Assembly (NCBI GenBank): GCA_016280695.1
Contig: JAEEHG010000281.1
Coordinates: forward strand, 1-18,321
Source of the DNA: Solobacterium sp.
Lineage (GTDB): Bacteria > Bacillota_I > Bacilli_A > Erysipelotrichales > Erysipelotrichaceae
DNA: 18,321 nucleotides
Reading direction: 5' to 3'
Shown: positions 485 to 15,229 of the stretch, in pieces
How the letters are laid out: each line of letters starts with the position of its first letter
Numbering within the stretch: the first letter of the stretch is position 1
The notes under the pieces: model-generated
Seen by the model: only the letters and a program-made list of their open reading frames with translations
Database searches by the model: none
What the model was told of the DNA's origin: nothing
Translations under genes and position numbers: made by a program

Positions 485-518
485 AAAAACAGAACTGCGT
501 GGCAGTTCTGCTTTTTTT
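482..518. terminator. Bidirectional Rho-independent terminator
   Basis: A perfect 9-bp stem (490-498 CAGAACTGC with 502-510 GCAGTTCTG) with a 3-nt loop is flanked by seven A (483-489) and seven T (512-518). It therefore reads as hairpin plus U-tract on both strands, ending the transporter gene from the left and the glycerate kinase operon from the right. The A-tract begins inside the transporter stop codon. Confidence 0.92.
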
Positions 519-521
519 CAG

Positions 522-1754: not shown

Positions 1755-1757
1755 GAT

Positions 1758-2393
1758 TCAATCCTCCGGGTGATCTGTCATTTCATCTGCGGCGGTCCGG
1801 CGGGCTTTGAGGGTTTCCAGAAAGTGATGCAGGATTCCCGCTGTCAGGCCCCAGATAACCGCTTCCTCTGTTTCATAAAACCAGAGGGTTTCACGCCGGC
1901 TGCGGAACGGGTATGCCTGCCCGCCGGGCAGAAGCGCGAAGGGGAAGGCGTCATCAAACTGCCGTTTCAGCTGATATGTCCCGGCAACTGGTTCCATCTG
2001 CAGCAGCTGCTCCACCGGGATCAGGAAGACCCGTTCAGCCTCGGCCTGGCTGAAGGTATTGCGGTAATCATGCAGGAGCCCGATAAAACAGTGAATCTGC
2101 GCTGCTCTTGAAGAATATGCATCAGGCATCGGTTTCAGGATTTCAAGCTGGGAAGGGGCTATAAGAAGCTCCTCGCAGGCTTCCCGTACAGCCGCCTGCC
2201 AGGCGGTTTCACCCGGTTCGATTTTTCCCCCGGGAAAGCAGACTTCGCCGCCCTGCGAAATGGCCGCGCTGCGGACCTCAAACAGGATGCACAGTTCATC
2301 ATTCTGCTCTACCAGCGGCAAAACGACCGAAAAGCCGGTTGGGGCGGTAAAATCCGTGCTGCTGAGAAGGGGATAGATATCTTTAAGATTCAT
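1758..2393 (-). CDS. Nudix hydrolase, CoA pyrophosphatase-like (NudL/YeaB type)
   Basis: Predicted to hydrolyse CoA or a related nucleoside diphosphate derivative in the cytosol. The Nudix box spans residues 56-78: G56, E62, R70-E71 and E74-E75 are in register, giving the metal-binding REx2EE core. The usual glycine near the end of the box is L77 here. Just before it, RSAAISQGGEVCFPGG (41-56) resembles the CoA-type motif (RSA...FPGG) of the UPF0035 subgroup, and the C-terminal IWGLTAGIL also fits that subgroup. Length 211 is typical. It sits between the DUF5662-like gene (7-base gap) and the glycerate kinase (3-base gap). No good Shine-Dalgarno precedes the ATG, so translation may be coupled to the upstream gene. 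CoA specificity is inferred from the motif only. Confidence 0.88.
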   Translation of the reverse strand: MNLKDIYPLLSSTDFTAPTGFSVVLPLVEQNDELCILFEVRSAAISQGGEVCFPGGKIEPGETAWQAAVREACEELLIAPSQLEILKPMPDAYSSRAAQIHCFIGLLHDYRNTFSQAEAERVFLIPVEQLLQMEPVAGTYQLKRQFDDAFPFALLPGGQAYPFRSRRETLWFYETEEAVIWGLTAGILHHFLETLKARRTAADEMTDHPED

Positions 2394-2400
2394 ATAACTG

Positions 2401-2961
2401 TTATCGAACTGAGCGTTTCTTCATGGTTTCCCTGATCCGGGCAAAGGCGGCATCTTCACCGTTTTCAGCCACATCCCGCAGGATCGCTTCCATTTCTGCC
2501 GCGGTTTCCGGATGCATATAGTTCCTGGCCGGCCGGGAGAGGAAATATTCCAGCGGGCTGGCCTGTGTATAGTTTTCTTTCAGGTAGACACGGCTGGCGG
2601 CGATCCGGTCACAGACACTTTCCACCAGATAACGGTAGGGCATCTTCACCGGCCTGTAAGCACCTTTCTGCATGTCATACCAGTATTCCCAGTGATGCCG
2701 GTTAAGGCCTTTGTGATGGAGCCACCCGGGCGCATAGCCGTAAAGCTCCCGTTCAGCGTCATAGGGTGAGCGCCAGCCCTGGAAGTACTTCACGCTTTCC
2801 GCGAGTTCTGCCGGGCTGTACTTGGAAAGGTCATGTGTCAGGCCCTGATAATACAGGCCGCAGGCAAAACAGTACCGGCGGACTTCACGGCGGTGATCAT
2901 GTACGGTTTTCAGATGTCCGGCCAGCTTCTGCATGACAGAAAGCTTTTTATCCCGAGTCAT
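2401..2961 (-). CDS. DUF5662-like protein (HD-like helical, unknown function)
   Basis: A 186-residue cytosolic protein rich in His, Tyr and Trp. I recognise it as resembling the DUF5662 family from HLKTVHDHRREV near the N-terminus, GLTHDLSKYSPAEL (about 40-53) with an HD-like pair, and LHHKGLNRHHWEYW (about 81-94). The spacing of histidines and aspartates resembles a metal-binding HD-type helical fold, but no reaction is known to me. It is the first gene of the operon with the Nudix hydrolase and glycerate kinase, divergent from pyruvate kinase. The start is odd: AGGAT abuts the ATG directly, and an extended -10 box lies six bases upstream, so the mRNA may be leaderless. No better ATG with a ribosome site exists downstream (Met10 has none). 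Family name moderately sure; function unknown. Confidence 0.72.
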   Translation of the reverse strand: MTRDKKLSVMQKLAGHLKTVHDHRREVRRYCFACGLYYQGLTHDLSKYSPAELAESVKYFQGWRSPYDAERELYGYAPGWLHHKGLNRHHWEYWYDMQKGAYRPVKMPYRYLVESVCDRIAASRVYLKENYTQASPLEYFLSRPARNYMHPETAAEMEAILRDVAENGEDAAFARIRETMKKRSVR

Positions 2962-2967
2962 ATCCTG

Positions 2968-2976
2968 ATTGTATCA
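2968..2976 (-). promoter_or_regulatory. Extended -10 promoter for the DUF5662-Nudix-glycerate kinase operon
   Basis: On the minus strand the sequence reads TG-A-TACAAT, an extended -10 element (5 of 6 to TATAAT plus the TG). It ends six bases before the ATG at 2961, so transcription would start at or next to the start codon. The -35 region is poor (TGATGA at best), as is common with extended -10 promoters. Confidence 0.5.
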
Positions 2977-3028
2977 TTCCTGTTCCGAAATCATCATAAG
3001 AATGAATGATTCTCTCTGGAAAAATACA

Positions 3029-3057
3029 TTGTTTTCTATTCCCGGGAAGTATATTAT
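3029..3057 (+). promoter_or_regulatory. Sigma-70/SigA-type promoter of pyruvate kinase
   Basis: TTGTTT at 3029-3034 and TATTAT at 3052-3057 are separated by exactly 17 bases. The -10 is 5 of 6 to consensus, the -35 keeps TTG. A leader of about 50 bases follows, containing a weak inverted repeat (GTGATCG 3067-3073 with CGGTCAC 3086-3092, one G-U pair) of unknown meaning. Confidence 0.6.
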
Positions 3058-3115
3058 TATCAAGTTGTGATCGGGTTTCAGGATACGGTCACTTTACAGA
3101 AAAGAGATTTTATTT

Positions 3116-4531
3116 ATGAGAAAAACAAAAATCATATGCACAATCGGACCGGCCAGTGATTCCGAGGAAATGCTCACGAAGCTCTGCCTTGCCGGGATGA
3201 ATGTCGCCCGTCTGAATTTTTCCCACGGGACGCACGAGGAACATCTGAAGCGTATCAATACAATCAAGAAAGTCCGTAATCAGCTGCACCTGCCGGTAGC
3301 CATCATGCTGGATACCAAAGGACCGGAATTCCGGATCGGGACGTTCAAGGACGGGAAGATCGAACTGGCGGAAGGAAGCCGCTTTACCTTTACCACCGAG
3401 AAGGTGGAAGGTGATGACTCGATGGTTTCGGTCAGTTACGGGAATCTCGCCAACGAAATGAATCCGGGTGATACGATTCTGGTCAATAACGGCCTGCTGG
3501 CGTTCCGGGTACTCAGTACAGACGGCACGAGGATCGAGACGGAAGTCATCAGCGGCGGGGTGATGTCCGACCGCAAGAGCATGGCTTTCCCGGGCAAGCA
3601 TATCAAGCAGAAGTATCTTTCCGAACAGGATGCGAAGGACATTCTCTTCGGCGTGGAAAATGATGTTGATTTCATTGCGTGCTCATTCGTATCGGTCAAG
3701 CAGGATCTGCTCGATATTCATGAACTCCTCGAAAGCCACGGTTACGGCCATACCGCGGAACTGATTGCCAAGATCGAAAACCAGTCCGGGGTGGATCAGA
3801 TCGAGGATATCTGTGAAGCCTGTGACGGCATCATGGTGGCCCGCGGCGACATGGGCGTCGAAGTCCCGCTGGAGCAGCTGCCTTCCATCCAGAAGAATCT
3901 GATTGAAATATGCCGGAAGCTCGGCAAGCGGGCAATCGTTGCCACGGAAATGCTGGAGTCCATGATTCACAATCCGCGCCCGACCCGGGCAGAGGCTTCC
4001 GATGTGGCCAACGCGGTATACGACGGGGCCAGCGCGGTGATGCTGTCAGGTGAGACAGCCGCCGGTGCGTATCCGGAACAGGCGGTTCTGACCATGGCCA
4101 GAATCGTAGCTGAAACCGAGAAGAACATCCACTACAGCAAGCGGTTCTACAACTATGAATTCCAGATTAAAAATGATGTGGACGCGATATCCCACGCCAC
4201 CTGCGGCATGGCCATTGACCTGCACGCCAAAGCCATCGTGGCCTGCACGCTGAGCGGCCGTACGGCCCGCATGGTTTCCCGGTTCCGCTCACCGGTGGAT
4301 ATCATCGGCCTGACCACCGATGAGAAGACCTGGCGTGGCCTGGCCCTGTCCTGGGGTGTGACGCCGTGCATGTGTGAAATGTTCAATTCCACCGATGTGC
4401 TGTTCTACACCGCCAAGAATGTGGCCCGCGATGTGTTCGCGCTGCAGCCGGGTGACAATATCATCATTACCGGCGGCGTCACCAACGGTCAGTCAGGCAA
4501 TACGAATCTGATCAAGATCGAAACCCTGTAA
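3116..4531 (+). CDS. pyk: Pyruvate kinase
   Basis: Last step of glycolysis: phosphoenolpyruvate plus ADP to pyruvate plus ATP; cytosolic homotetramer in the family. N-terminal KTKIICTIGPAS and NVARLNFSHG, the active-site block LDTKGPEFRIG (65-75), the signature ELIAKIENQSGV (215-226) with K219 and metal ligand E221, VARGDMGVEVP with D245, and ATEMLESMI..PRPTRAE (276-293) are all present. The T-K-G-P-E form (T67, E71) is the one associated with K+-dependent enzymes. Length 471 means it has the catalytic core and C domain but lacks the extra PEP-utiliser-like domain of Bacillus enzymes (about 585). The start follows a weak GAAAAGAGA ribosome site. Transcribed alone: promoter just upstream, strong terminator just downstream. 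Confidence 0.98.
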   Translation: MRKTKIICTIGPASDSEEMLTKLCLAGMNVARLNFSHGTHEEHLKRINTIKKVRNQLHLPVAIMLDTKGPEFRIGTFKDGKIELAEGSRFTFTTEKVEGDDSMVSVSYGNLANEMNPGDTILVNNGLLAFRVLSTDGTRIETEVISGGVMSDRKSMAFPGKHIKQKYLSEQDAKDILFGVENDVDFIACSFVSVKQDLLDIHELLESHGYGHTAELIAKIENQSGVDQIEDICEACDGIMVARGDMGVEVPLEQLPSIQKNLIEICRKLGKRAIVATEMLESMIHNPRPTRAEASDVANAVYDGASAVMLSGETAAGAYPEQAVLTMARIVAETEKNIHYSKRFYNYEFQIKNDVDAISHATCGMAIDLHAKAIVACTLSGRTARMVSRFRSPVDIIGLTTDEKTWRGLALSWGVTPCMCEMFNSTDVLFYTAKNVARDVFALQPGDNIIITGGVTNGQSGNTNLIKIETL

Positions 4532-4537
4532 AAACAG

Positions 4538-4563
4538 CAGAGCAGATTGACTGCTCTGTTTTT
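4538..4563 (+). terminator. Rho-independent terminator after pyk
   Basis: An 8-bp perfect stem (CAGAGCAG 4538-4545 with CTGCTCTG 4551-4558), 5-nt loop, and T-tract 4559-4563 begin seven bases after the pyk stop codon. It separates pyk from the nusB operon. Confidence 0.9.
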
Positions 4564-4611
4564 CTCTTGAAAAGGGTACTGACTGCAGCTGCCGGGAGGG
4601 TTTGTGAACGC

Positions 4612-4649
4612 CTATTTCATGAACAAATAGCAGGGCAGTATGATAAAAT
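4612..4649 (+). promoter_or_regulatory. Extended -10 promoter of the nusB operon with overlapping inverted repeat
   Basis: TG-A-TAAAAT at 4641-4649 is an extended -10 box; TGAACA at 4620-4625 is a plausible -35 (4 of 6) with an 18-base spacer. The -35 lies within an inverted repeat, CTATTT (4612-4617) and AAATAG (4625-4630) around a 7-base centre that also contains the palindrome TTCATGAA. This could be an operator; no regulator is identified. The -10 ends six bases before the ATG at 4656. Confidence 0.55.
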
Positions 4650-4667
4650 ATTTCAATGGAGGAAGTT

Positions 4668-5066
4668 ATGACCATCCAGAATGAAAAAGAACTGAACCGT
4701 CATGTCAGCCGGACAGCTGCAGTCATCTGTGTCTATCAGTATCTCATCTGGCCGCGGGATGCGGAAATCCTGCTGGAAGATGCCGAGGAAGCTGATATCC
4801 GCAGTGATGAGTACATGGGCAGAGTCGTGGACACGGCGGTCCGGGAGAAAGACCGTTATATCGGTTATATCAATCAGGTGCTTGAACACTGGTCTTTTGA
4901 CCGTCTCGGCATTATTGAACAGGCCATACTGCTGTGCGGCTGCGCGGAATTTGACCTGAAGACCGTGGAAGCGCCGGTCATCATTGATGAGTATATCCGG
5001 ATCGCCCGCAAATACGGCGATAAGGATTCCCATAAACTGATCAACGGGGTTCTTGACAGAATATGA
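4668..5066 (+). CDS. nusB: Transcription antitermination protein NusB
   Basis: Partner of NusE (S10) in the antitermination complex acting on boxA of rRNA operons; also helps ribosome maturation. The all-helical family pattern is visible towards the C-terminus: HWSFDRLGIIEQAILLCGCAEFDL, then VIIDEYIRIARKYG and the closing HKLINGVLDRI. From ATG 4668 the product is 132 residues, normal for NusB. GGAGG at 4658-4662 sits five bases before this ATG. An in-frame ATG at 4656 would add MEEV; it overlaps the GGAGG and coincides with the predicted transcription start, so a leaderless start there is possible. First gene of the nine-gene operon; its stop overlaps xseA by four bases (ATGA). Confidence 0.92.
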   Translation: MTIQNEKELNRHVSRTAAVICVYQYLIWPRDAEILLEDAEEADIRSDEYMGRVVDTAVREKDRYIGYINQVLEHWSFDRLGIIEQAILLCGCAEFDLKTVEAPVIIDEYIRIARKYGDKDSHKLINGVLDRI

Positions 5067-6406
5067 GCCAGCGGGCTGTTTCGGTATCCGCCCTGGTTCA
5101 CTATGTGAAGCAGAAGCTGGAAGGGGACCCGCTGATTCAGAGAGTGCTGGTGGAAGGTGAAATCAGCAATTTTTCGAATTACCGTTCCGGCCACTGGTAT
5201 TTCAGCCTGAAGGACGGCGCAGCCCAGATCCGCTGTGTCATGTTTGCCTCGGCAAACAGCCGGGTGAAGTTTCTGCCGAAAGACGGTGACAAGGTGCTGG
5301 TCCAGGCGGACCTGAATGTCTATGAGGCCCGCGGGGAGATGCAGCTGATTGTCACAGCGATGCAGGCTGCCGGGCTGGGTGAATTGTACCGGCAGTATGA
5401 GGAACTGAAGAAAAAACTGGAGACAGAAGGGCTCTTTGCCCCGGAGCACAAGAAACCGCTGCCGCCGTATCCGTTCAGTATCGGGCTGATCACCGGCAAG
5501 AATACCGCGGCCCGCTCGGATGTCCTGACAACCCTGCAGAGACGCTGGCCGGTGGCTGCCATAACGGAATACCCGGTGCTGGTGCAGGGCACGGAAAGTG
5601 CCGGACAGATTGTCCAGGCTCTGAAGAAAGCCGATGAAAGCGGGCATGATGTGCTGCTGCTGGTCAGGGGCGGCGGTTCGATTGAGGATCTCTGGTCATT
5701 CAACGATGAAACCCTGGCCCGGACCATCTATGCGCTTAATACCCCGCTGATTACCGGCGTGGGCCATGAAACAGATTTTACGATCGCCGATTTTGCGGCA
5801 GATCTGCGGGCTCCGACCCCGACCGGGGCGGCTGAACGCTGTGCCCCGGATATCCGGGATGTACTCAGCCGCATTGACCAGTTTCATGTCCGGCTCCGTG
5901 GGGCGGTATCGGCCCGTATGAGTGCCGAACGCAGACATATTGATGCCATCAGGCGGTATTCCTGGTTTGCCGATCCGCAACGGCTGGTGCGCGATCCGCA
6001 GCTGCGGCTGAACGATCTGGCGATCCGGCTGGACGATGAGATCCGGGCGGTCCGGCAGATGCAGGACGGGCGCCTGCGCCAGCTGATGGGAAACCTGCAG
6101 AAAGCCCTGCGGGAACGTATGCGTGACACGGAGAATACACTCCATGAAAACCGGCAGGCCGTATTGTATGCCCTGAACCTGCGGCTTACAAGGGAAAACG
6201 ACCGCCTGCAGAAAAACATCCATCTGCTTGATGCCTATTCACCGCTGAAGGTGATAGCCCGCGGCTACAGCATCGTGCTGAAAAACGGGACGGCTGTCAG
6301 ACGGGCGGATATGGTGCAGAAAGGCGATGAAGTAGAACTTCTTCTGGGCCGCGGAAAAGCTGCGGCTGTCATCACAGATACAGATATGGAGGCAGAACAT
6401 GGCTGA
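5063..6406 (+). CDS. xseA: Exodeoxyribonuclease VII large subunit
   Basis: Catalytic subunit of ExoVII, which with many XseB copies degrades single-stranded DNA to oligonucleotides in repair. N-terminal OB-fold (about 5-100) with VLVEGEISNFSNYRSGHWYFSLKD, then the nuclease domain: GLITGKNTAARSDVL (141-155), LLLVRGGGSIEDLWSFNDE (198-216) and GVGHETDFTIADFAADLRAPTPTGAAE (232-258). A long helical or coiled-coil stretch (about 265-385) follows, then the C-terminal region with SPLKVIARGYSIV. 447 residues is a normal length. The start overlaps the nusB stop as ATGA, so translation is probably coupled; the 3' end overlaps xseB by eight bases. All expected motifs look intact. Confidence 0.97.
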   Translation: MSQRAVSVSALVHYVKQKLEGDPLIQRVLVEGEISNFSNYRSGHWYFSLKDGAAQIRCVMFASANSRVKFLPKDGDKVLVQADLNVYEARGEMQLIVTAMQAAGLGELYRQYEELKKKLETEGLFAPEHKKPLPPYPFSIGLITGKNTAARSDVLTTLQRRWPVAAITEYPVLVQGTESAGQIVQALKKADESGHDVLLLVRGGGSIEDLWSFNDETLARTIYALNTPLITGVGHETDFTIADFAADLRAPTPTGAAERCAPDIRDVLSRIDQFHVRLRGAVSARMSAERRHIDAIRRYSWFADPQRLVRDPQLRLNDLAIRLDDEIRAVRQMQDGRLRQLMGNLQKALRERMRDTENTLHENRQAVLYALNLRLTRENDRLQKNIHLLDAYSPLKVIARGYSIVLKNGTAVRRADMVQKGDEVELLLGRGKAAAVITDTDMEAEHG

Positions 6407-6605
6407 TAAGGAAAAGACATTTGAAGAATCCATGGCCCGGCTTGAGGAAATCGTGCGGATTCTTGAGAAGAATGAAAAACCGCTGGATGAAACAATCGCA
6501 TTGTTTGAAGAAGGACTGAAACTGGTCAGGACATGTGATGCCAGACTGAAGTCCTTTGAGACGAAGATCGAGGAGATCACGGCCGCTGATCATGAAGAAG
6601 AGTGA
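6399..6605 (+). CDS. xseB: Exodeoxyribonuclease VII small subunit
   Basis: Small helical subunit that binds the helical region of XseA to form the elongated ExoVII complex. 68 residues, with the typical family pattern FEESMARLEEIVRILE, EKPLDETIALFEEGLKL and an acidic tail. GGAGG at 6388-6392, six bases before the ATG, lies within the end of xseA. It overlaps xseA by eight bases and the next gene (ispA) by fourteen, the longest overlap in the operon. Confidence 0.95.
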   Translation: MADKEKTFEESMARLEEIVRILEKNEKPLDETIALFEEGLKLVRTCDARLKSFETKIEEITAADHEEE

Positions 6606-7440
6606 ATTCGAGGAAAAACTGAAGCTTACGGCCGCTGCAGTCAAAGACAGCCGCGTAAAGGAAGCCATGCTGTATTCCCTCATGGCGGGCGGCAAGCGCA
6701 TCCGGCCGATGATGCTCTATGCAGTGACAGAAGGTTACGGACTGCCGGCGGAAACCGCAGATGCTTTTGCCTGCGCGCTGGAGATGATCCATACGTACTC
6801 ACTGATTCACGATGATCTGCCGGCAATGGACAATGATGACCTGCGCCGGGGCAGACCGACCTGCCACAAGGCCTTTGATGAAGCGACGGCGATTCTGGCC
6901 GGGGACGGGCTGCTGACGTACGCGTTTGAAACAGCCGTGAAGACTGCAGGCATATCGGCGGAACAAGTGCTGAAAGGGGTGCGGATCCTGGCCGGAGACG
7001 CCGGCCCGGACGGGATGGTATTGGGCCAGTGCCTGGATATGCAGGAATCTGTGCAGACGGACTGGAAAGCACTGCAGACCATCCACCACCATAAAACCGG
7101 CTGCCTGCTGAGCGCGCCTCTGGAAATCGGTGCGGTCCTGGCCGGGTGTGATGAGGAAACCTGCGGCCTCTGGCGGCAGATCGGCTTCGACATCGGTCTG
7201 GCTTTCCAGCTGCAGGATGATATTCTTGATGTGGAAAAAACCGCTGCCGAACTGGGCAAGTCCAATTCGGATGAGCGCAATGAAAAAGTAACCGGGGTCA
7301 GCCTTCTGGGGATAGAGAAGGCCAGAACCCTGATGAATCAGCTGTATGACGACAGTTTTGCGAAGATCGAAAAAATAAAGGGGTTCGAATCTGACGCGCT
7401 GACCGGTCTGCTGCGGGAAGTACAGCACCGGAATCACTAG
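6592..7440 (+). CDS. ispA: Polyprenyl synthetase, probably farnesyl diphosphate synthase
   Basis: Condenses IPP with allylic diphosphates to make (probably) farnesyl diphosphate for undecaprenyl and quinone-type lipids. First aspartate-rich motif HDDLPAMDND (D74, D75, D80), then DLRRGRPTCHK; second aspartate-rich motif FQLQDDILD (D209, D210, D213); GGKRIRP at about 33-39. The residue five before the first motif is Tyr (TYSLIHDD), as in bacterial FPP synthases, which argues for a C15 product. I chose ATG 6592 (282 residues): the longer frame from TTG 6556 has an Arg-rich lead that is just xseB read in another frame. No close ribosome site (AGGAG is 16 bases away), so translation is likely coupled to xseB, which it overlaps by 14 bases. 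Sits beside dxs, the first enzyme of the same pathway. Confidence 0.93.
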   Translation: MKKSEFEEKLKLTAAAVKDSRVKEAMLYSLMAGGKRIRPMMLYAVTEGYGLPAETADAFACALEMIHTYSLIHDDLPAMDNDDLRRGRPTCHKAFDEATAILAGDGLLTYAFETAVKTAGISAEQVLKGVRILAGDAGPDGMVLGQCLDMQESVQTDWKALQTIHHHKTGCLLSAPLEIGAVLAGCDEETCGLWRQIGFDIGLAFQLQDDILDVEKTAAELGKSNSDERNEKVTGVSLLGIEKARTLMNQLYDDSFAKIEKIKGFESDALTGLLREVQHRNH

Positions 7441-7449
7441 GAGGAACCT

Positions 7450-9315
7450 ATGGATCTGACAACCATTGAGAATCCCGGCTTTCTGAAAGATAAGTCGGTT
7501 GAGGAAATGGAGGATCTGGCCGCGGATATCCGGGCCTTCCTGATTCATTCCCTTGCCAAAACAGGCGGGCACATTGCCAGCAATCTGGGAGTCGTGGAAC
7601 TCACCATCGCCCTGCATTATGTTTTTGATATGCCGGCTGACAAAATATTTTTTGATGTCGGCCACCAGTGCTACACGCACAAGATCCTGACCGGACGGGC
7701 CAAGGCGTTTGAGACGCTGCGGCAGTACGGCGGGATCAGCGGCTTTCAGAAACGCCGGGAAAGCGAATATGATGTCTGGGAGGCCGGACACAGTTCCACT
7801 TCCCTGAGCGCCGCGCTGGGCATGGCAATAGCCCGGGACCTGAATCATGAAGATTACCATATCGTCCCGGTCATCGGGGACGGGGCGCTGAGTTCCGGCA
7901 TGGCCCTGGAAGCCCTGAATACGATCGGTTCCGAACGGCGCAGGATGATCATTATCTTCAATGACAACAATATGTCCATCTCAAAGAATGTCGGGGCCCT
8001 GACCCGCGGGTTCTCGCGTCTGCGCTCAGCAAAATCATACAATTCCCTCAAACTGAACATGAAGGATGCCCTGAACCGCAGCGGCGTGGGCAAGGTTGTC
8101 TATACCGGCCTGAAGGGCATCAAGGATACGCTTCGCGACACAGTGATTGACAGGGGCATTTTCGGCGAATTCAACGTCAATTATCTCGGCCCGGTGGATG
8201 GTCACAGCATCAAGGATCTGATCCGGGTGCTGACGGTGGCGAAGGAATATGATGACCCGGTGGTTATCCATGTCATCACCCGTAAGGGGAAGGGCTATGC
8301 GCCGTGTGAGATGGACCGGGAGGGGATCTGGCACGGGGTCGGGCCGTTTGACCCGGCAACCGGAAAAATGCTGGCTGCCACGCCGGAAGGCTACAAGTCA
8401 TGGTCAAAGCTGATGGCGGATACGCTGGAGGAACTGGCTACCAGGAACGAAGATATCATTGCCTTGACGCCGGCCATGATCAACGGCAGTTCCCTGGAAT
8501 CATTCTTTGCGCATTTCAGCGAGCGCAGTTTTGACTGCGGCATCGCAGAAGAACATACGGTTACCATGGCTGCCGGCATGGCGATCAGCGGCAAGCGGCC
8601 GTTTGTGTCGATTTACAGCAGTTTCATGCAGCGGGCCTATGATCAGATCAATCATGATGTCTGCCGGATGGATCTGCCCGTTGTCTTCGGCATTGACCGC
8701 GCCGGACTGGTCGGGGCCGACGGGGAAACCCATCACGGAGTCTTTGACCCGGGCCTGCTTCTGCCGCTGCCGAATATGGTTGTGGCTCAGCCGAAGAATG
8801 CCCAGGAAGCCCGTGACCTGATGTATACGGCATTCTCCCAGAAACATCCGTTTGCCATCCGCTACCCGCGGGGTGATGCGAAGATTCCGGAAGATATTCA
8901 CCTCAGACTGGTACCGGTCGGGAGCTGGTGTGAGGATTACAGGGGAGATACGGTCAGGCTGACAGTGATTTCCTATGGTCCTGATGTGGAAAAGATTTCG
9001 GAGAAGGCCGCGGTCAATCAGCTGCCGGTCCGGGTTGTCAATGCCCGTTTCTTCAAGCCGCTTGATCTGGAGTGCCTGAAGAATCTGGCTGCGGAAGGCC
9101 TGCCGGTGATTGTCTATGAAACCGATATGCTGAACGGGGGACTCTCGGCGGCCATCCTGAGTGCCGTAAATGACCTGAACCTTTCCATGCCGGTGATCCG
9201 GCTCGGGATCGGTGACCGGTTTGTTACCCATGGTTCGCTGAAACAGCTGCGGACCGAAGCCGGCATTGACCTGAATACCCTGTTCGCGAAAATAACGGAG
9301 CTGCTGCATGATTAA
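7450..9315 (+). CDS. dxs: 1-deoxy-D-xylulose-5-phosphate synthase
   Basis: Thiamine-diphosphate enzyme that joins pyruvate and glyceraldehyde-3-phosphate, the first committed step of the MEP isoprenoid pathway; DXP also feeds thiamine and pyridoxal synthesis. N-terminal GHIASNLGVVELTIALH (40-56), FFDVGHQCYTHKILTG (67-82), ThDP/Mg motif GDGALSSG...FNDNN (143-174), and the pyrimidine-domain block IAEEHTVTMAAGMA (365-378) holding the glutamate that activates ThDP, followed by YSSFMQRAYDQINHDV (389-404). A transketolase C-terminal domain closes the protein. 621 residues is the standard length. AGGAGG at 7439-7444 overlaps the ispA stop and is five bases from the ATG. Its 3' end overlaps recN by eight bases, with no tlyA or argR between them. 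Confidence 0.98.
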   Translation: MDLTTIENPGFLKDKSVEEMEDLAADIRAFLIHSLAKTGGHIASNLGVVELTIALHYVFDMPADKIFFDVGHQCYTHKILTGRAKAFETLRQYGGISGFQKRRESEYDVWEAGHSSTSLSAALGMAIARDLNHEDYHIVPVIGDGALSSGMALEALNTIGSERRRMIIIFNDNNMSISKNVGALTRGFSRLRSAKSYNSLKLNMKDALNRSGVGKVVYTGLKGIKDTLRDTVIDRGIFGEFNVNYLGPVDGHSIKDLIRVLTVAKEYDDPVVIHVITRKGKGYAPCEMDREGIWHGVGPFDPATGKMLAATPEGYKSWSKLMADTLEELATRNEDIIALTPAMINGSSLESFFAHFSERSFDCGIAEEHTVTMAAGMAISGKRPFVSIYSSFMQRAYDQINHDVCRMDLPVVFGIDRAGLVGADGETHHGVFDPGLLLPLPNMVVAQPKNAQEARDLMYTAFSQKHPFAIRYPRGDAKIPEDIHLRLVPVGSWCEDYRGDTVRLTVISYGPDVEKISEKAAVNQLPVRVVNARFFKPLDLECLKNLAAEGLPVIVYETDMLNGGLSAAILSAVNDLNLSMPVIRLGIGDRFVTHGSLKQLRTEAGIDLNTLFAKITELLHD

Positions 9316-10954
9316 GCATCTGTATATACGCAATTTTGTCCTGATAGATGAGCTCTCACTGGATTTTGAGCGTGGTTTCAGCGCGTTTACCGGCGAGACC
9401 GGGGCGGGCAAATCGATCCTGATCGATGCCATCAGCCTGCTGGGACGGGAACGGGCCAGCACAGCCCAGATCCGTCATGGTGAGAACAAGGCAATCGTGG
9501 AAGGCACCTTTGATCTCAGCCGTGACAGCCATGCCCTGCAGGTCCTCGCAGATGCCGGTTTTGAAGTGGATCCGGAAGAGGTCACATTTACCCGTGAACT
9601 GTCTGCGGCCGGCAAGAGCACTGCCCGCATTGATCACCGGATTGTCACGATCGGCCTGCTCAATGATGTCCTGCAGAATCAGATTGATATCCATAACCAG
9701 CGGGATAATCAATACCTGCTCAATGCCAGAACCCACCTTGACCTGCTGGATGAATATCTCGGCTGCGGCGAGCTGCGCCGGGAGACCGCGGAAGCATACG
9801 CTGACTGGCAGGCCTGCGTGCAGGAAAAGGAAAAAGCCCTGCAGGATACCTACAACGAAAATGATCTGGAATACTTCCAGTATCAGATCCGGGAAATCGA
9901 AAGTGCCGGGCTGAAACCGGGAGAAGATGAAGAACTCGAGGAACGGGAACGGGCCTACAAAGCCGTCAAGAATTCCTATGACCGGATCCACGGGATTCTG
10001 GAACTGTATGATGCCATGGCCGGAACTCTGTACGAATTCCGCCGGCAGACCGATACGCTGGAGAACACGGAAGTCTTTGACCGGATCCGGGAACGCATCA
10101 ATGACAGCTATTACCAGATTGAAGACGCAGCTTCCGAACTGCGCGGGGTATTTGAAGAGTTCGATTTCAGTGATGATGACATCAATGCCCTGGAGGAGAG
10201 GCTGTTTGTCCTGCAGCGGCTCAAGCGCAAATACGGCGGCAGCATCGAACTGATCCTGAGCCGAAAGGAAGAACTGGTGCAGGCCGTAGACCGGATTGCC
10301 AACCGGCAGAGCTGGCTGGAGAAAAAAGACCGGGAGATCGCGGCGGCTTATGAGAAATACCGCACAGCGGCAGGAAAACTGTCGGTGAAACGGAAGGAAA
10401 ACAGCGGGAAGCTGGATGCGGAGATTGCCGGTCATCTGAAAGACCTGTCACTGCCGCATGCCCGCTTTGTGACGGACGTCAAACCCGGCCCGGACAGTGC
10501 CAGGGGATTTGATCATGTCGAATTCCTGGTAAATATGAACCGCGGGGAAGAACTGCGGCCGCTCGTCAAGGTTGCCAGCGGCGGTGAAATCAGCCGGCTG
10601 ATGCTGGGGCTGAAAGTCATATTCACCAGACTGCAGAAAATCGATACCGTCATCTTTGATGAAATCGATACCGGTGTCAGCGGGGCTGTGGCCGGCGCGA
10701 TCGGGCAGAAGATGAGGGAACTGGCCGGCAGCTGCCAGGTCTTTGCGGTAACGCATCTGGCCCCGGTAGCGGCCTGGGCCGGGCATAACTATGTTGTGGA
10801 AAAGGATCCGGACAGTGAACATGTACGCACCCAGGTGCGGCTGCTGGATGAAACAGAAACCATTGCGGAACTGGCATCGATTCTTTCCGGTGAAGTGACG
10901 GATGCGTCCCTTGCGGCGGCGGCAGAGCTGCGGAAGCGGAACAGGAAAAGCTGA
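9308..10954 (+). CDS. recN: DNA repair protein RecN
   Basis: SMC-like ATPase that tethers or bridges broken DNA during recombinational double-strand break repair. Walker A GETGAGKS (29-36), long central coiled coil (about 155-375), ABC-type signature ASGGEISRLMLGLK (423-436) and Walker B DTVIFDEIDTGVSG (446-459), followed by FAVTHLAPVAAWAGHNYVV (479-497). The N-terminal half contains DIHNQRDNQYLL where many homologues have DIHGQHEHQ. 548 residues is normal for RecN. Start ATG 9308 has GGAG seven bases upstream, inside the end of dxs. No GAAC-N4-GTTC LexA box was noticed upstream of it, so SOS control from this spot is not supported. Its TGA overlaps the dinB ATG by one base. Confidence 0.97.
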   Translation: MIKHLYIRNFVLIDELSLDFERGFSAFTGETGAGKSILIDAISLLGRERASTAQIRHGENKAIVEGTFDLSRDSHALQVLADAGFEVDPEEVTFTRELSAAGKSTARIDHRIVTIGLLNDVLQNQIDIHNQRDNQYLLNARTHLDLLDEYLGCGELRRETAEAYADWQACVQEKEKALQDTYNENDLEYFQYQIREIESAGLKPGEDEELEERERAYKAVKNSYDRIHGILELYDAMAGTLYEFRRQTDTLENTEVFDRIRERINDSYYQIEDAASELRGVFEEFDFSDDDINALEERLFVLQRLKRKYGGSIELILSRKEELVQAVDRIANRQSWLEKKDREIAAAYEKYRTAAGKLSVKRKENSGKLDAEIAGHLKDLSLPHARFVTDVKPGPDSARGFDHVEFLVNMNRGEELRPLVKVASGGEISRLMLGLKVIFTRLQKIDTVIFDEIDTGVSGAVAGAIGQKMRELAGSCQVFAVTHLAPVAAWAGHNYVVEKDPDSEHVRTQVRLLDETETIAELASILSGEVTDASLAAAAELRKRNRKS

Positions 10955-12123
10955 TGGCCAAAGTCTACTTTCATATTGATCTGAATGCGTTTTTTGCCAA
11001 TGCGGAGGTGCTGCGGGACCCCGGCCTGAAAGGCCTGCCGGTTGTCGTCTCGGGCAATACCCGCCGCAGTGTCGTTTCCACGGCGAGCTATGAAGCCCGC
11101 CGCTTTGGTATTCATTCGGCAATGCCGCTGAGTGAAGCGCTGCATCTGTGTCCGGAACTGGTGGTAGTGGAACCGCATTTCCCGCTGTACCGGGAACTGT
11201 CGGAACAGTTCATCCGGATCATCTCAGAGAACGCGGATGAAATCGAACAGGCATCCATTGATGAATGCTATGCCGATATGACCAGGGAAATCCGCAAATA
11301 CGAAAAACCGCTTGACCTGGCCTGGTTCCTGCAGAAGAAGATCTATCATGACCTGGGCCTGCCGTGTTCGATCGGAGTAGCCCCGAACATGTTCCTGGCC
11401 AAGATGGCCAGTGATATGAAAAAACCGCTGGGCATCACGGTCCTGCGGCTACGGGAAGTAGAAGAAAAGCTGTGGCCGCTGGATATTTCCGACATGCGCG
11501 GCGTAGGGGTGAAAACCGTGCCGCTGCTGCGTGATCTCGGCATCAATACGATCGGTGACCTGGCCCGGTACGAAGACATCAGCCGGCTGCGTCAGGTCTT
11601 CGGGAAAAATACGGAAATGGTGCTGCAGCGCGCCCATGGTCATGATGACCGCCAGATCGTGCGGGACTGGGATGCCAAATCCAGGGGGGTTTCAGAAACA
11701 GTACTGGATGACCTGACTGATTACGAGGAGATCAGGGGCCTGCTCAGAACCCTGGCCAGACGGCTGTCAAAGCGGCTTCGTGAAGACCAGAAAGCGGGAT
11801 ACAGTATTTCCCTGCGGATCAAATACAATGATTTCCAGAATACGGACCGGTCCCGGAAACTGGCTGCGCCGGTCTGGAAGAGCGATGATCTCTACGTACA
11901 GGCACTGCAGCTGCTGGATGACAACTGGAACGGGGAACCGGTCCGTCTGCTTGGTATTTCGTTATCTGATTTTGCCGAAGGTACACAGCTGACTTCCCAG
12001 CTGAATCTGTTTGATGAAACAGAAGCCCTGAAGGAAGAAACGGCTTCGGTCCTGGCGGAACTCAATGAAGTCCTGGGCGGGAAAGTGCTGAAAAGGGCAA
12101 GTGAAGCCGGGAAGGAGAACTGA
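10954..12123 (+). CDS. dinB: Y-family DNA polymerase IV
   Basis: Error-prone translesion polymerase. Catalytic carboxylates are present: D9 in HIDLNAFFANAE and D103-E104 in SIDECY, numbered as in the E. coli enzyme. F13 is the expected steric gate against ribonucleotides. SIGVAPNMFLAKMASDMKKP (thumb or palm region) and the helix-hairpin-helix MRGVGVKTVPLLRDLGI follow. Near the C-terminus QLNLF (349-353) is a sliding-clamp binding motif, after which comes a 36-residue charged tail. 389 residues is typical of Bacillota DinB. The start shares its A with the recN stop (TGATG), so translation is probably coupled. Its own stop overlaps the next ATG the same way. Confidence 0.95.
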   Translation: MAKVYFHIDLNAFFANAEVLRDPGLKGLPVVVSGNTRRSVVSTASYEARRFGIHSAMPLSEALHLCPELVVVEPHFPLYRELSEQFIRIISENADEIEQASIDECYADMTREIRKYEKPLDLAWFLQKKIYHDLGLPCSIGVAPNMFLAKMASDMKKPLGITVLRLREVEEKLWPLDISDMRGVGVKTVPLLRDLGINTIGDLARYEDISRLRQVFGKNTEMVLQRAHGHDDRQIVRDWDAKSRGVSETVLDDLTDYEEIRGLLRTLARRLSKRLREDQKAGYSISLRIKYNDFQNTDRSRKLAAPVWKSDDLYVQALQLLDDNWNGEPVRLLGISLSDFAEGTQLTSQLNLFDETEALKEETASVLAELNEVLGGKVLKRASEAGKEN

Positions 12124-13058
12124 TGGAACTGGAGAAGGCCATCGGGGAGTATCTCGTCAATATTTCCGTCAATGAAGGCAAGTCCCCGCGGACCGTAGCC
12201 TCTTACAGGCGCGATTTAAGCCAGTATTCGGCGTTTCTGAAGGAAAACGGGATTTCATCCACGGAAGAGATAAACGGCCCGATTCTGGATAATTTTCTGC
12301 ATGCTCAGCTGGAAACGAAAAAGAATTCCAGTGTCAGCCGCATGGCTGCGGCTATTCGTTCCTTTCACCACTACATGAATTTCATGCATGATGAAAAGGA
12401 TCCGTCCCTGACCATTGAGATTCACCGCGGACCGAGCACTCTGCCGGTTTTTGCCAGTGTTGATGAAGTCAACCGGATCATGCAGTCATTTGATGACAGC
12501 CAGCCGCAGGAAATTTTCCGGCATGCCTTGCTGGAACTGATGTATGCCTGCGGTTTACGGGTATCCGAAGTGTGCAGCCTGACCTACAACCGGGTGGATC
12601 TGGATACCGGTATGGTGCGGGTGCTGGGCAAGGGAAACAAGGAACGGCTTGTCCCGATTGCCCGCGGCAGCATTCCGATTCTGATCCGTTACCGGGATAC
12701 CGTCCGGCCGACCTGGGTGAAAGGGCGCACACAGCTGTTTTTTGTCAACCGCTTCGGCCGCCGGGTAACCCCGCGCAGTGTGGAGCTGCTGATGGAACAG
12801 AAACGCAGTGAACTGGGCATCAAAAAGAAACTGACCCCGCACAAGATGCGCCACAGCTATGCCACACATATGCTGCAGGGGGGCGCTGACCTGCGCAGCA
12901 TTCAGGAGATGCTCGGGCACAGCGACATCCAGACGACGGAAATCTATACGCATGTACAGAACCGGCAGCTGTTTGACAGTTATGAGAAGTATCATCCCGG
13001 CGGACTTGATGAAGACCTGCCGATGCCGGAAAAAAAGAAGGAGCCGGAAAATGAATGA
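12123..13058 (+). CDS. xerD: XerD-like tyrosine recombinase (site-specific integrase)
   Basis: Site-specific recombinase of the XerC/XerD group, which resolve chromosome dimers at dif. N-terminal SAM-like DNA-binding domain (about 1-85), catalytic domain from about 108. All active-site residues are present: R146 (CGLRVSEV), K170 (LGKGNKERLVPI), H240 and R243 (HKMRHSYATHML), H266 (LGHSDIQTT) and the nucleophile Y275 (IYTHV). 311 residues with a Lys/Glu-rich tail. AAGGAG at 12112-12117 is five bases from the ATG, which overlaps the dinB stop by one base; the 3' end overlaps the HD gene by eight. No integrated element surrounds it, so it is more likely a housekeeping Xer protein than a phage integrase. 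A dif-like site lies about 1.1 kb downstream. Whether it is XerC, XerD or a single-protein Xer cannot be settled here. Confidence 0.9.
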   Translation: MELEKAIGEYLVNISVNEGKSPRTVASYRRDLSQYSAFLKENGISSTEEINGPILDNFLHAQLETKKNSSVSRMAAAIRSFHHYMNFMHDEKDPSLTIEIHRGPSTLPVFASVDEVNRIMQSFDDSQPQEIFRHALLELMYACGLRVSEVCSLTYNRVDLDTGMVRVLGKGNKERLVPIARGSIPILIRYRDTVRPTWVKGRTQLFFVNRFGRRVTPRSVELLMEQKRSELGIKKKLTPHKMRHSYATHMLQGGADLRSIQEMLGHSDIQTTEIYTHVQNRQLFDSYEKYHPGGLDEDLPMPEKKKEPENE

Positions 13059-13515
13059 TTATGAAATGCTGAGAGAGGCCCTGGTACTGGCATATCGTGC
13101 CCATAAAGGCCAGAAAGCCAGGGACCGGGAACTGCCTGAGTACATTTTTCATCCCGTAACCGTGGCCCTGCAGTGCACCACGGCAAAAGAAAAAACGGCT
13201 GCGCTGCTGCATGATGTGATTGAAGATACGGATATTACCGCCGCAGATCTGCGCAGAGAGGGGTTCAGCGAAGATGTTGTTGCGGCAGTGGAACTGTTAA
13301 GCTGTCCGTATGAACATCCTTCCGCTGAACAGTATCTTGCCTATGTTGCGGATATCAGCAGGAATCCGATAGCCCGGGCAGTCAAGATCGCCGATCTGAC
13401 CAATAATCTGGACGATTCGCGGCTGCCGGATCCGGAAATGATGAAGAACAAGCGGGAAAACTACTATTTGCCGGCTTTGCGGATGCTGACAGAAAAAGAA
13501 AACAAAGCAGGGTAA
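13051..13515 (+). CDS. Small HD-domain hydrolase, SpoT/MESH1-like
   Basis: A 154-residue stand-alone HD protein. The pattern AYRAHKGQKARDRELPEYIFHP (14-35), LLHDVIEDT (52-60) and AVKIADLTNN (110-119) matches the hydrolase domain of RelA/SpoT proteins, with metal ligands H34, H54-D55 and D115 and the ED pair E58-D59. No synthetase, TGS or ACT domain follows. It may be a small alarmone hydrolase that removes pyrophosphate from (p)ppGpp, or a broader nucleotide phosphohydrolase; sequence alone does not decide. AAGGAG at 13038-13043 is seven bases from the ATG, and the gene overlaps xerD by eight bases. A longer frame exists upstream (from 12859) but has no support since it runs through xerD. Its last codons form one arm of the terminator. 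Last gene of the nine-gene operon. Confidence 0.82.
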   Translation: MNDYEMLREALVLAYRAHKGQKARDRELPEYIFHPVTVALQCTTAKEKTAALLHDVIEDTDITAADLRREGFSEDVVAAVELLSCPYEHPSAEQYLAYVADISRNPIARAVKIADLTNNLDDSRLPDPEMMKNKRENYYLPALRMLTEKENKAG

Positions 13516-13528
13516 CCTGCTTTGTTTT
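13499..13528. terminator. Bidirectional terminator shared by two convergent genes
   Basis: CAAAGCAGG (13503-13511) pairs perfectly with CCTGCTTTG (13516-13524) around the loop GTAA. The stem extends by four A-T pairs (AAAA 13499-13502 with TTTT 13525-13528), giving U-tracts in both directions. The HD gene stop codon (13513-13515) is in the loop, and the Dabb gene stop (13527-13529) starts in the distal T-tract. Confidence 0.9.
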
Positions 13529-13829
13529 AAATCGTGTAATCAATGCAGACGCGTCCATGCGTTGAGGCGGCGATGGTGCCGTCTTTTACTTTGACATGAG
13601 CCGGATGTACGGCATATCCTGCCAGCGCTTCAGCATCCTTCAGTGTGCAGTCCAGCATGATGTCATGTGTGGATGTTGTCATAGGTTCAATAATGACGTG
13701 AATGTCCAGAAGACCGTCAATCTGCCCGGCCAGTCCTTCAAGGCCGTCCCGGATTTTCTCGGCAGCATTTTTCTTCTCTTCCGGGGAAAGATCATCATTC
13801 AGCTGCCATAAAATAATGTGTTTTACCAT
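13527..13829 (-). CDS. Dabb domain protein (stress-responsive A/B barrel)
   Basis: A 100-residue protein of the dimeric alpha+beta barrel (Dabb) family. It opens with MVKHIILWQLNDD, the usual first strand, and contains the central HDIMLDCTLKDAEALAGY and the histidine-bearing HPAHVKVKDG. Members form dimeric barrels; a few are enzymes or stress-induced proteins, but most, including this one, have no assigned reaction. GGAGG at 13836-13840 is six bases before the ATG. A perfect TATAAT at 13847-13852 (minus strand) provides a promoter. It converges on the HD gene with only 11 bases between stop codons. Family good, function unknown. Confidence 0.88.
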   Translation of the reverse strand: MVKHIILWQLNDDLSPEEKKNAAEKIRDGLEGLAGQIDGLLDIHVIIEPMTTSTHDIMLDCTLKDAEALAGYAVHPAHVKVKDGTIAASTHGRVCIDYTI

Positions 13830-13846
13830 AATCTGCCTCCGGTATT

Positions 13847-13897
13847 ATTATAACTTCATTTACAACTGACTGTATTCAGCAAACCCGTTCAGTCAGT
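13847..13897 (-). promoter_or_regulatory. Promoter of the Dabb gene with flanking inverted repeat
   Basis: Minus-strand TATAAT at 13847-13852, 17 bases upstream of the ATG. The -35 position (about 13870-13875) has no good consensus match and falls in a perfect 8-bp inverted repeat, ACTGACTG (13865-13872) and CAGTCAGT (13890-13897) around 17 bases. A protein binding there could control the promoter; this is inference. Confidence 0.5.
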
Positions 13898-14118
13898 ATT
13901 CTTGATTAACATCAGCACAGCAGATCATGAAAATGCGGGGATACCTTGTCTGAAGAGGGGGGGCACGTCCATGTCGGCCATGCAAGACATTCACCCGTTA
14001 AGTATTCTGTCTCGATTATATTTTCTGCAATAAAATGACGTATTGTTCAAGTAAACAAAACAATTTCTGAATTAATAAATAAGATCAGCTTTCATAATTT
14101 CGTAACAAATACAGATAT
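13853..14118. other. Long intergenic region beside the dif-like site: repeats, G-tract, AT-rich part
   Basis: The only stretch over 300 bases without a gene is 13830-14191; this is its interior. It holds two related direct repeats, ACCCGTT...GTATTCT, at 13883-13902 and 13993-14008, a run of seven G at 13957-13963, a short inverted repeat (ATGTC 13971-13975, GACAT 13986-13990) and an isolated minus-strand TATAAT at 14015-14020 that could be a second promoter towards the Dabb gene. From about 13990 to 14125 the sequence is clearly AT-rich compared with the rest of the window. Only very short frames occur (for example 17 codons from 13980), none with a ribosome site. I see no tRNA, sRNA or gene remnant that I can defend. 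Confidence 0.6.
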
Positions 14119-14151
14119 AAAAAAAGCGCGGATTTATCAGCAAAATCGCGC
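14119..14151 (-). terminator. Rho-independent terminator of the ComEC-like gene
   Basis: Read on the minus strand, GCGCGATTT (14151-14143) pairs with AAATCCGCGC (14135-14126) with one bulged C and a 7-nt loop, followed by seven T (14125-14119). It lies 41 bases after the stop codon of the metallo-beta-lactamase gene. The dif-like sequence lies between that stop and this hairpin. Confidence 0.85.
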
Positions 14152-14159
14152 ATTTCTTA

Positions 14160-14187
14160 TAATCGCATAACATACATTATGCGAAGT
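14160..14187 (-). other. Candidate dif site (Xer recombination site for chromosome dimer resolution)
   Basis: On the minus strand this reads left arm ACTTCGCATAA, centre TGTATG, right arm TTATGCGATTA, the 11-6-11 layout of a XerCD/dif site. From memory, the E. coli site is GGTGCGCATAA, TGTATA, TTATGTTAAAT (19 of 28 identical by my count). The B. subtilis and S. aureus sites begin with ACTTC and have TTATG in the same right-arm position. The core TCGCATAA (14163-14170) and TTATGCGA (14177-14184) is a perfect inverted repeat about the 6-base centre. It sits four bases after the stop of the ComEC-like gene, in the longest intergenic region, where gene direction switches, about 1.1 kb from the xerD-like gene. 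The outer right arm is diverged and the half-sites are more symmetric than usual. It could instead be only a hairpin, but no U-tract follows it directly. Confidence 0.65.
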
Positions 14188-14191
14188 AATA

Positions 14192-15229
14192 TCATTTTTC
14201 CGTTTGTATAGAGAGGATACGGTGCATATCGGCTGTAAATGTAATTGTGCCGTTGAGATCTGTCCGGTAGACCCGCATTCCATGTTCTTCCAGACGCCTG
14301 ACCAGATTGGCATTCGGCAGCTGGAATTCATTTCCTGCGCCGACGGATATGACAGCATAGTCTGCATCCACTGCATCGAGGAACGGTCCGGCACAGGAAT
14401 CATATGAGCCGTGGTGTCCTGCCCGCAGCACGGTGGCAGACAGATCCTTGCCGGTATCCAGGACAGCATATTCTGCCGGCCAGCCTGCATCTCCAGTAAT
14501 CAGGAAACGAATATCACCATATTCAATTAATACGATTCCTGAATACTGATTCAGATCATCATGCTGCAGGGTTTCGGGTGGTGAAACCATTTTCACATAC
14601 AAGTTAGCGTTTTCACAAATATTGCTGTCCTCTTTTGCTGTCTGGAGATTGAGTGCATGCTGATCCGCGAGTTTTTGTATCAGGCCATAGTAATAATTAT
14701 CTGAAATCAATTCCGGCGGAAATGACGGCTCACAGATATTTCTGACTGTAAACTCTCCTGTTACCCTTCTGACTCCCCCGACATGATCTGCGTGCGGATG
14801 GGTCAGAAACAGCCAGTCAATTACAGTTATGTTTTTTTCTTTCAGGAATTGTATCGTTCGATCAGCGTTTTCCAGCGGACCGCAGTCCACCAGCATGACT
14901 TTACCGTCCGGGAACTCGATCAAGGTCGCGTCCCCCTGCCCCACATCAATGAAGGAAACAGTTATAGGGTCTTCATCGGTATAGAACGGCAGGAGATTCT
15001 TTTCATCCGCGTACCAGCAAAGGCCGAGCAGGATGACGCATAAAACCGACTTCAGAATGGATCCGGTGCGGCTGCGGGGATACGGAAAGACAGCCATGGC
15101 TGTAAACAGCAATATATAAGAGTATTGAATATGCCGGAAAAAACCGCCCAGAAACAGCAGCAGGGCAGCCAGTGACAGGAACAGCCTGAATATGGATTCC
15201 CGGGACAATCCCCCTTTTTTCTTTCTCAT
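14192..15229 (-). CDS. Membrane-anchored ComEC/Rec2-like metallo-beta-lactamase protein
   Basis: 345 residues: an N-terminal membrane part with about two or three hydrophobic segments (roughly 13-31, 36-49 and 59-72) followed by an extracytoplasmic metallo-beta-lactamase domain resembling the C-terminal domain of ComEC. ITVSFIDVGQGDATLIEFPDGKVMLVDCG (89-117), the metal motif HPHADH (H144, H146, D148, H149) with GG after it, ITGDAG (D247) and AGHHGS (H272, H273) are present. The ComEC competence channel domain is absent, so it is not full-length ComEC. Members of this group are suspected hydrolases or nucleases; the substrate is unknown. The start lacks a usable ribosome site (AGAGG is one base from the ATG), and a perfect TATAAT ends six bases upstream, suggesting a leaderless mRNA. 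An internal TTG at codon 8 is the only nearby alternative. Confidence 0.85.
   Translation of the reverse strand: MRKKKGGLSRESIFRLFLSLAALLLFLGGFFRHIQYSYILLFTAMAVFPYPRSRTGSILKSVLCVILLGLCWYADEKNLLPFYTDEDPITVSFIDVGQGDATLIEFPDGKVMLVDCGPLENADRTIQFLKEKNITVIDWLFLTHPHADHVGGVRRVTGEFTVRNICEPSFPPELISDNYYYGLIQKLADQHALNLQTAKEDSNICENANLYVKMVSPPETLQHDDLNQYSGIVLIEYGDIRFLITGDAGWPAEYAVLDTGKDLSATVLRAGHHGSYDSCAGPFLDAVDADYAVISVGAGNEFQLPNANLVRRLEEHGMRVYRTDLNGTITFTADMHRILSIQTEK

Follow-up and report, generated by a model that had tools for sequence, protein, structure and literature searches.

A very probable chromosomal dif site close to xerD in a Solobacterium-like bacterium of the order Erysipelotrichales

The window analysed in this study (18,321 bp) is the whole of one contig (G000:C61) from a draft genome of 1.74 Mb, which consists of 291 contigs and is 77% complete. 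Three Solobacterium sp. records, from the guts of cattle, goat and sheep, carry an Xer gene that is 94–98% identical to the one in the window, and Solobacterium is placed within Erysipelotrichales by the NCBI taxonomy. A 28-bp intergenic sequence at nt 14160–14187 had been interpreted, in a preliminary description, as a dif-like Xer recombination site marking the replication terminus. The questions raised by this locus are whether the sequence is indeed the dif site of the chromosome, and whether it is served by two recombinases or by the product of the Xer gene close by. The evidence given below makes it very probable that nt 14160–14187 represent the chromosomal dif site of a Solobacterium-like Erysipelotrichales bacterium, presumably used in ordinary dimer resolution by FtsK, XerC and XerD.

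The site and its surroundings

Read on the minus strand, nt 14160–14187 consist of ACTTCGCATAA, TGTATG and TTATGCGATTA, an 11-6-11 arrangement (Table 1) in which the inner eight bases of the right arm are an exact inverted copy of those of the left. In its layout it resembles the known 28-bp 11-6-11 dif sites of XerCD systems. The sequence agrees at 19 of 28 positions with what we take to be E. coli dif, at 18 of 28 with what we take to be B. subtilis dif, and at 23 of 28 with the order form ACTTCGCATAATGTATATTATGTAAATT (from G025). With each of the three references it was the top-scoring 28-mer on both strands of the window, where no better dif match occurs, and chance matches with up to three mismatches numbered zero in 200 dinucleotide shuffles of the window. 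The dif-like form proposed for these 28 bases was present as described, and the centre does differ by one base from TGTATA, presumably the centre of E. coli dif.

Table 1. Features of the window at and near the very probable dif site
Feature	Position (nt)	Strand	Comment
xerD, tyrosine recombinase, 311 aa	12123–13058	plus	XerD rather than XerC by tree
Dabb-domain protein gene	13527–13829	minus	Neighbour outside the dif system
Terminator-like hairpin followed by T run	14119–14158	minus	Separate from dif; suits the gene at 14192–15229
Very probable dif site, 28 bp, ACTTCGCATAATGTATGTTATGCGATTA	14160–14187	minus	
Right arm TTATGCGATTA, 11 bases	14160–14170	minus	Presumed XerD side, by analogy
Central hexamer TGTATG	14171–14176	minus	Same in 45 of 48 genus sites
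Left arm ACTTCGCATAA, 11 bases	14177–14187	minus	Presumed XerC side, by analogy with E. coli dif
ComEC-like metallo-beta-lactamase-fold domain protein gene	14192–15229	minus	Neighbour outside the dif system

The site is non-coding and lies between the Dabb-domain and ComEC-like genes, starting 5 bases beyond the end of the latter. An ORF of 117 aa (nt 14137–14490) that was called mechanically across dif, and that overlaps the metallo-hydrolase gene in another frame, is judged to be spurious. The terminator-like hairpin has a folding energy of -12.2 kcal/mol (z -2.01, with 6 of 200 shuffles equally good), and is the one feature assigned to the low-GC intergenic stretch left of dif (nt 13830–14160). 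The gene-strand switch claimed for this position stands in the main, as the main genes on the right side run leftward and the block at nt 3116–13515 runs rightward, but there are leftward exceptions on the left side at nt 522–2961 and 13527–13829. In 1-kb windows, GC skew is negative on the right of about 13.5 kb; on the left most values are above zero, with two slightly negative windows close to 2 kb.

Copy number, conservation and position at the terminus

Within the 77%-complete draft the 22-base core, searched with up to three mismatches, occurs as a single copy, in agreement with the uniqueness proposed for it, and relaxed dif patterns revealed no second site there. Conservation in relatives was found in part. 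A match within three mismatches is present in 45 of 70 genomes of the genus (0 of 70 for a reversed-pattern control), as one copy in 42 and as two copies in three (G018, G059 and G076); 25 genomes, among them 10 of the 41 better ones, have no match at this threshold, and six of the 25 were later assigned a variant site (G041, G083, G077, G061, G046 and G081). Fourteen regions at and downstream of xerD, often shortened by contig ends, were searched in the unmatched genomes. Five contained clear variants, at 23–25 of 28 positions (the first five genomes just listed), one a weaker candidate (G074, 21 of 28), and no site was found in the remaining eight regions, most of which are short. The G081 site was recovered with a relaxed pattern, on a contig other than that of xerD.

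Across the order, the relaxed pattern has a match in 129 of the 148 genomes (reversed control, 1 of 148), and a dif pattern in 53 of 80 genomes of the class outside the order (reversed control, 2 of 80), the class being as defined by the search tool. Conservation drops sharply at the edges of the 28-mer. Measured for 30 of the 48 genus sites, information amounts to 1.84 bits per base within the 28-mer and to 0.29 and 0.30 over the 60 bases to either side. Part of the inside value follows from choosing the sites by a three-mismatch sequence search, which does not apply to the low values of the flanks. In the same 30 sites a few bases adjacent to the edges, chiefly on the right side, are T-biased.

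In the close relative G020, three overlapping tyrosine recombinase genes (locus L166 on contig C134, nt 236–3369) abut dif. The match of the window to this locus begins inside dif (window nt 14163 corresponds to nt 3345 of L166), and contig C103 of the same genome, which carries xerD, was seen by eye to end about 20 bases short of dif on its other side. It looks as if the trio, of the kind found in RIT elements, belongs to an element inserted at dif. In G018 the two dif copies are at C71 nt 31532 and C88 nt 50263, and in G076 at C170 nt 262 and C4 nt 1614. Each of these genomes has one copy on the xerD contig, and its other copy shares a contig with genes that were named by eye as HU, DHH and acetate kinase; the arrangement resembles an element flanked by two dif copies. 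Variant centres occur in G059 (TGCTTA; C118 nt 4106), where an integrase gene is found 2.3 kb from the variant, and in G007 (TGTAGA; C45 nt 9482).

Two single-contig relatives with dnaA at the contig start, G042 (2,615,268 bp) and G047 (1,545,033 bp), allowed skew to be followed in sampled stretches and in 40–60 kb of contiguous DNA around dif. The local cumulative GC-skew maximum of G042 is at nt 1,420,500, only 25 bases from dif (nt 1420525–1420552), and that of G047 at nt 697,225, 339 bases from dif (nt 696859–696886); in both genomes dif is roughly opposite dnaA. Skew is positive in all sampled stretches left of dif (12 of 12 in G042, 10 of 10 in G047), negative in 6 of 7 and 9 of 9, respectively, on the right, and near zero in the dif-bearing stretch of each. 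One stretch of G042 (C1, nt 2050001–2070000; skew +0.184) has the wrong sign for its replichore, and is perhaps an inverted or recently acquired segment. The skew extremum predicted at this site by the preliminary description thus falls at dif in both relatives and, together with the skew flip in the window, uniqueness and conservation, supports its reading as the replication terminus, which is where the dif of an XerCD system lies.

FtsK-gamma was detected in all 12 genomes searched, including that of the window. The octamer GAGAAGGG, which we take to be the SpoIIIE polarity octamer of B. subtilis, favours the leading strand in the sampled stretches by 5 to 0 (G047) and 8 to 0 (G042), in a count that leaves out the off-trend G042 stretch, is without a shuffle control and may track purine skew. 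Octamers GGGCAGGG, GGGTAGGG and GGGAAGGG were too rare in these stretches for polarity to be judged.

The recombinases and their distance from dif

The catalytic-set positions of the Xer protein encoded in the window are occupied by R146, K170, H240, R243, H266 and Y275. Its scores against the two family profiles are similar (TIGR02225, 277.8 bits with a curated cut-off of 329.6; TIGR02224, 274.3 bits) and both are below cut-off, but a tree places it among the XerD-type copies of the order and separates it from the second copies. It is identified as XerD because of this grouping, with the second copies scoring as XerC in G042 and G047. The second Xer of G042 follows topA and trmFO (XerC 317.5 versus XerD 299.8 bits), while that of G047 is downstream of topA, with a trmFO identified by eye between them, and is separated narrowly (XerC 293.2 versus XerD 291.9 bits); all of these are below cut-offs. 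For G126, G134 and G169 the TIGR02225 profile fails to separate XerD from XerC, and the tree decides.

No XerC was found in the draft of the window itself, which has a single PF00589 match, and this is attributed to its 77% completeness. Two Xer matches are present in 37 of the 41 better genus genomes, and the system is therefore read as one with two recombinases rather than a lone one. The motifs G(L/M)R..E, HxxRH and GH...Y are found in all 40 second-copy Xer rows examined. Requiring the catalytic motifs jointly proved too strict, as 24 of 87 Xer rows passed, and of the 63 failures HxxRH is present in 63, GH...Y in 63 and G(L/M/I)R..E in 62 (L130, L189 and L212 were left out of the count, and the lysine was counted only within the joint pattern).

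An origin of the neighbouring Xer by duplication of XerC was considered and rejected, as in a 90-row tree the linked copies part from the unlinked ones with two changes of label. The label 'linked' denotes an XerD-type copy in this tree, and several such genomes have no dif on the same contig (e.g. G020, G007, G016, G092, G152, G090 and G094). The tree retains L130, which is mis-cut, has a branch length of 10 and lacks recombinase motifs, and L189, which is mislabelled as unlinked and is 35.6 kb from its dif.

With these components, dimer resolution would take the usual course. Homologous recombination would join the daughter chromosomes into a dimer, and FtsK, as the septal translocase, would pull DNA toward dif from both replichores. 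By analogy, XerC would bind the ACTTCGCATAA arm and XerD the TTATGCGATTA arm, and under FtsK control the pair would exchange strands across TGTATG, so splitting the dimer.

In the window xerD is about 1.1 kb from dif. In every examined genome where the two share a contig (29 in the genus, 23 in the rest of the order and 27 in the rest of the class) dif is downstream of xerD, at distances from 17 bp up to 236 kb; the genomes do not count as independent cases, and the length of draft contigs bounds the distance that can be measured. Within the genus, the genomes of 47 of the 48 dif rows have a close xerD match, and 29 of the rows (29 genomes) share a contig with it. All 29 have dif downstream, between 17 bp and 17 kb away, with gene and site on opposite strands in 25 genomes and on one strand in four. 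In these four (G002, G042, G044 and G068) dif is flipped relative to xerD, and the skew switch of G042 is still at dif. In the rest of the order, 23 of 26 tabulated genomes share a contig, and in all 23 dif is downstream and on the opposite strand (0.6–36 kb, median 2.1 kb). For the class outside the order the figures are 27 of 31, all downstream, with 22 on the opposite strand (0.7–236 kb, median 4.1 kb). The distance is 0.03–36 kb in eight single-contig genomes (G042, G047, G126, G134, G169, G025, G038 and G029); among single-contig genomes outside the order it is 172–236 kb in four and 59 and 64 kb in two more. In the 19 genomes measured, 55–852 kb separate dif from the second Xer, taken as XerC, rounded genome sizes being used for 11 of them. 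Closeness is the informative part of the linkage, as a leading-strand gene on either replichore faces the terminus anyway. In other parts of the class the linkage also accompanies dif sites with asymmetric arms.

In the order table, XerD is the copy most like that of the window, except in G025 and G038, where the copy near dif was used; the choice is backed by the family score in G025, and is left unsettled by the tree in G038. Xer profile scoring in the class covered 32 of the 48 dif-matched genomes outside the order. For G258 the Xer of the main contig was used and not the top-scoring Xer on another contig, while the other Xer genes of the class table are the top TIGR02225 match of each genome. 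The more dif-like of two rows was used for G240 and G221, and G219 (no Xer match) and G094 (no dif match) were dropped from the distance tables.

Linkage between recombinase gene and site is noted for the single-recombinase modules XerS-difSL and XerH-difH in the available parts of PMC5357621, PMC2731167 and PMC9765430. A literature search, to which subscription papers were mostly closed, found no report of XerCD-dif linkage in this class, of dif in Erysipelotrich-, Erysipelothrix or Solobacterium, or of xerD gene order at the terminus. The proximity of xerD and dif could reflect either simple co-inheritance of neighbours at the terminus or selection that keeps the two together. The interval is not static, with lengths between 17 bp and 17 kb in a single genus, and this mildly favours selection.

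Arm symmetry and competing explanations

The exact left arm ACTTCGCATAA is found in 42 of 48 genus sites, and the right (XerD) arm is TTATGCGA in 37 and TTATACGA in 7 of the 48. Among 112 sites from 111 genomes outside the genus, a set that was itself obtained with a pattern, 78 have ACTTCGCATAA as left arm, and the commonest right arm is TTATGTAA (55 sites), followed by TTATGTTA (13), TTATGCGA (9), TTATGTGA (8), TTATACGA (7) and rarer forms (20). The nine genomes with TTATGCGA belong to other genera of the family (G088, G089, G099, G105, G151, G175, G176, G193 and G198). As the right arm of the genus is mostly TTATGCGA, bases 5, 6, 23 and 24 are mostly complementary, and thus the bases that usually discriminate the arms are symmetric here. 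In proteobacterial dif sites these positions are rarely part of a palindrome, according to the available part of PMC2731167. By count the change in symmetry is modest, as the arms agree at 8 of 11 positions in the window, at 9 of 11 in 26 of the 48 genus sites, and again at 8 of 11 in the G025 site, which is asymmetric.

The B. subtilis system, which we take to comprise RipX, CodV and dif, is similar in its 28-bp 11-6-11 site, ACTTC edge, terminus position, two recombinases (seen here in the relatives) and FtsK-gamma, but differs in its XerD arm (TTATGTAA rather than TTATGCGA) and in the placement of xerD, which here is so near to dif. A recombinase gene beside the site at the terminus is a likeness to XerS-difSL (streptococci, lactococci) and XerH-difH (Campylobacter, Helicobacter), but those systems have one recombinase, whereas the relatives studied here encode XerC and XerD. 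The available part of PMC5357621 gives difSL as 31 bp with an 11-bp central region, while the centre here would, by analogy, be 6 bp. XerL-dif of Legionellales also has uninterrupted inverted repeats in its arms, of 10 and 12 bp in the available part of PMC9765430 compared with 8 bp here, but XerL is a lone recombinase and, from the same source, is more than 400 kb from dif in L. pneumophila.

These comparisons bear on whether XerD might act alone at dif, as a homotetramer in a module like the single-recombinase ones, with XerC idle or used elsewhere. The exact inversion of the inner eight bases of the arms, the missing XerC match in the draft, and an xerD linked to dif as in single-recombinase modules (available parts of PMC5357621 and PMC9765430) would all suit such an arrangement. 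It is nevertheless improbable. Of the 41 better genus genomes, 37 have a pair of Xer matches, the second Xer lies near topA and scores best as XerC in G042 and (narrowly) in G047, G(L/M)R..E, HxxRH and GH...Y are retained in all 40 second-copy rows, and in other parts of the class the same linkage is combined with dif sites whose arms are asymmetric. A somewhat better, though still doubtful, prospect is that a two-recombinase XerCD system has kept xerD and dif linked in this class, with dif always downstream, and that the XerD arm of the genus has converged toward its XerC counterpart, such that the usual discriminating bases no longer define arm identity and either Xer could fill either arm. 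If true, such a system would stand, as a natural intermediate, between those with two recombinases and those with one.

It is scarcely credible that the 28-mer is simply the terminator hairpin of the ComEC-like gene. It does begin just past the end of that gene, and as RNA would form a 9-pair hairpin of -10 kcal/mol, equalled by none of 200 shuffles, but the separate hairpin and T run lie immediately beyond it, its would-be loop TGTATG is conserved in 45 of 48 genus sites while the flanks differ, and it is a single-copy sequence found at the skew maximum in relatives. Nor is there any real likelihood that it is a mere attachment site left by a mobile element, as might be imagined from the recombinase genes abutting dif in G020 and the second copies in G018, G059 and G076. 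In G019 and G006, the nearest relatives, no trio adjoins the site as far as their contigs show, the site recurs in 129 of 148 genomes of the order, and elements that target dif better account for both the trio and the second copies.

This is a dif site of a kind already known; what sets it apart is the unusual likeness of its halves and the nearby xerD, in an arrangement that recurs in many related bacteria. From a single short contig it locates the replication terminus of an uncultured lineage of the ruminant gut, and its symmetric arms offer a natural test of half-site discrimination by XerC versus XerD. The comparative data also suggest that xerD and dif stay close in many two-recombinase bacteria, a linkage otherwise presented, in the available parts of the papers cited above, for single-recombinase modules.
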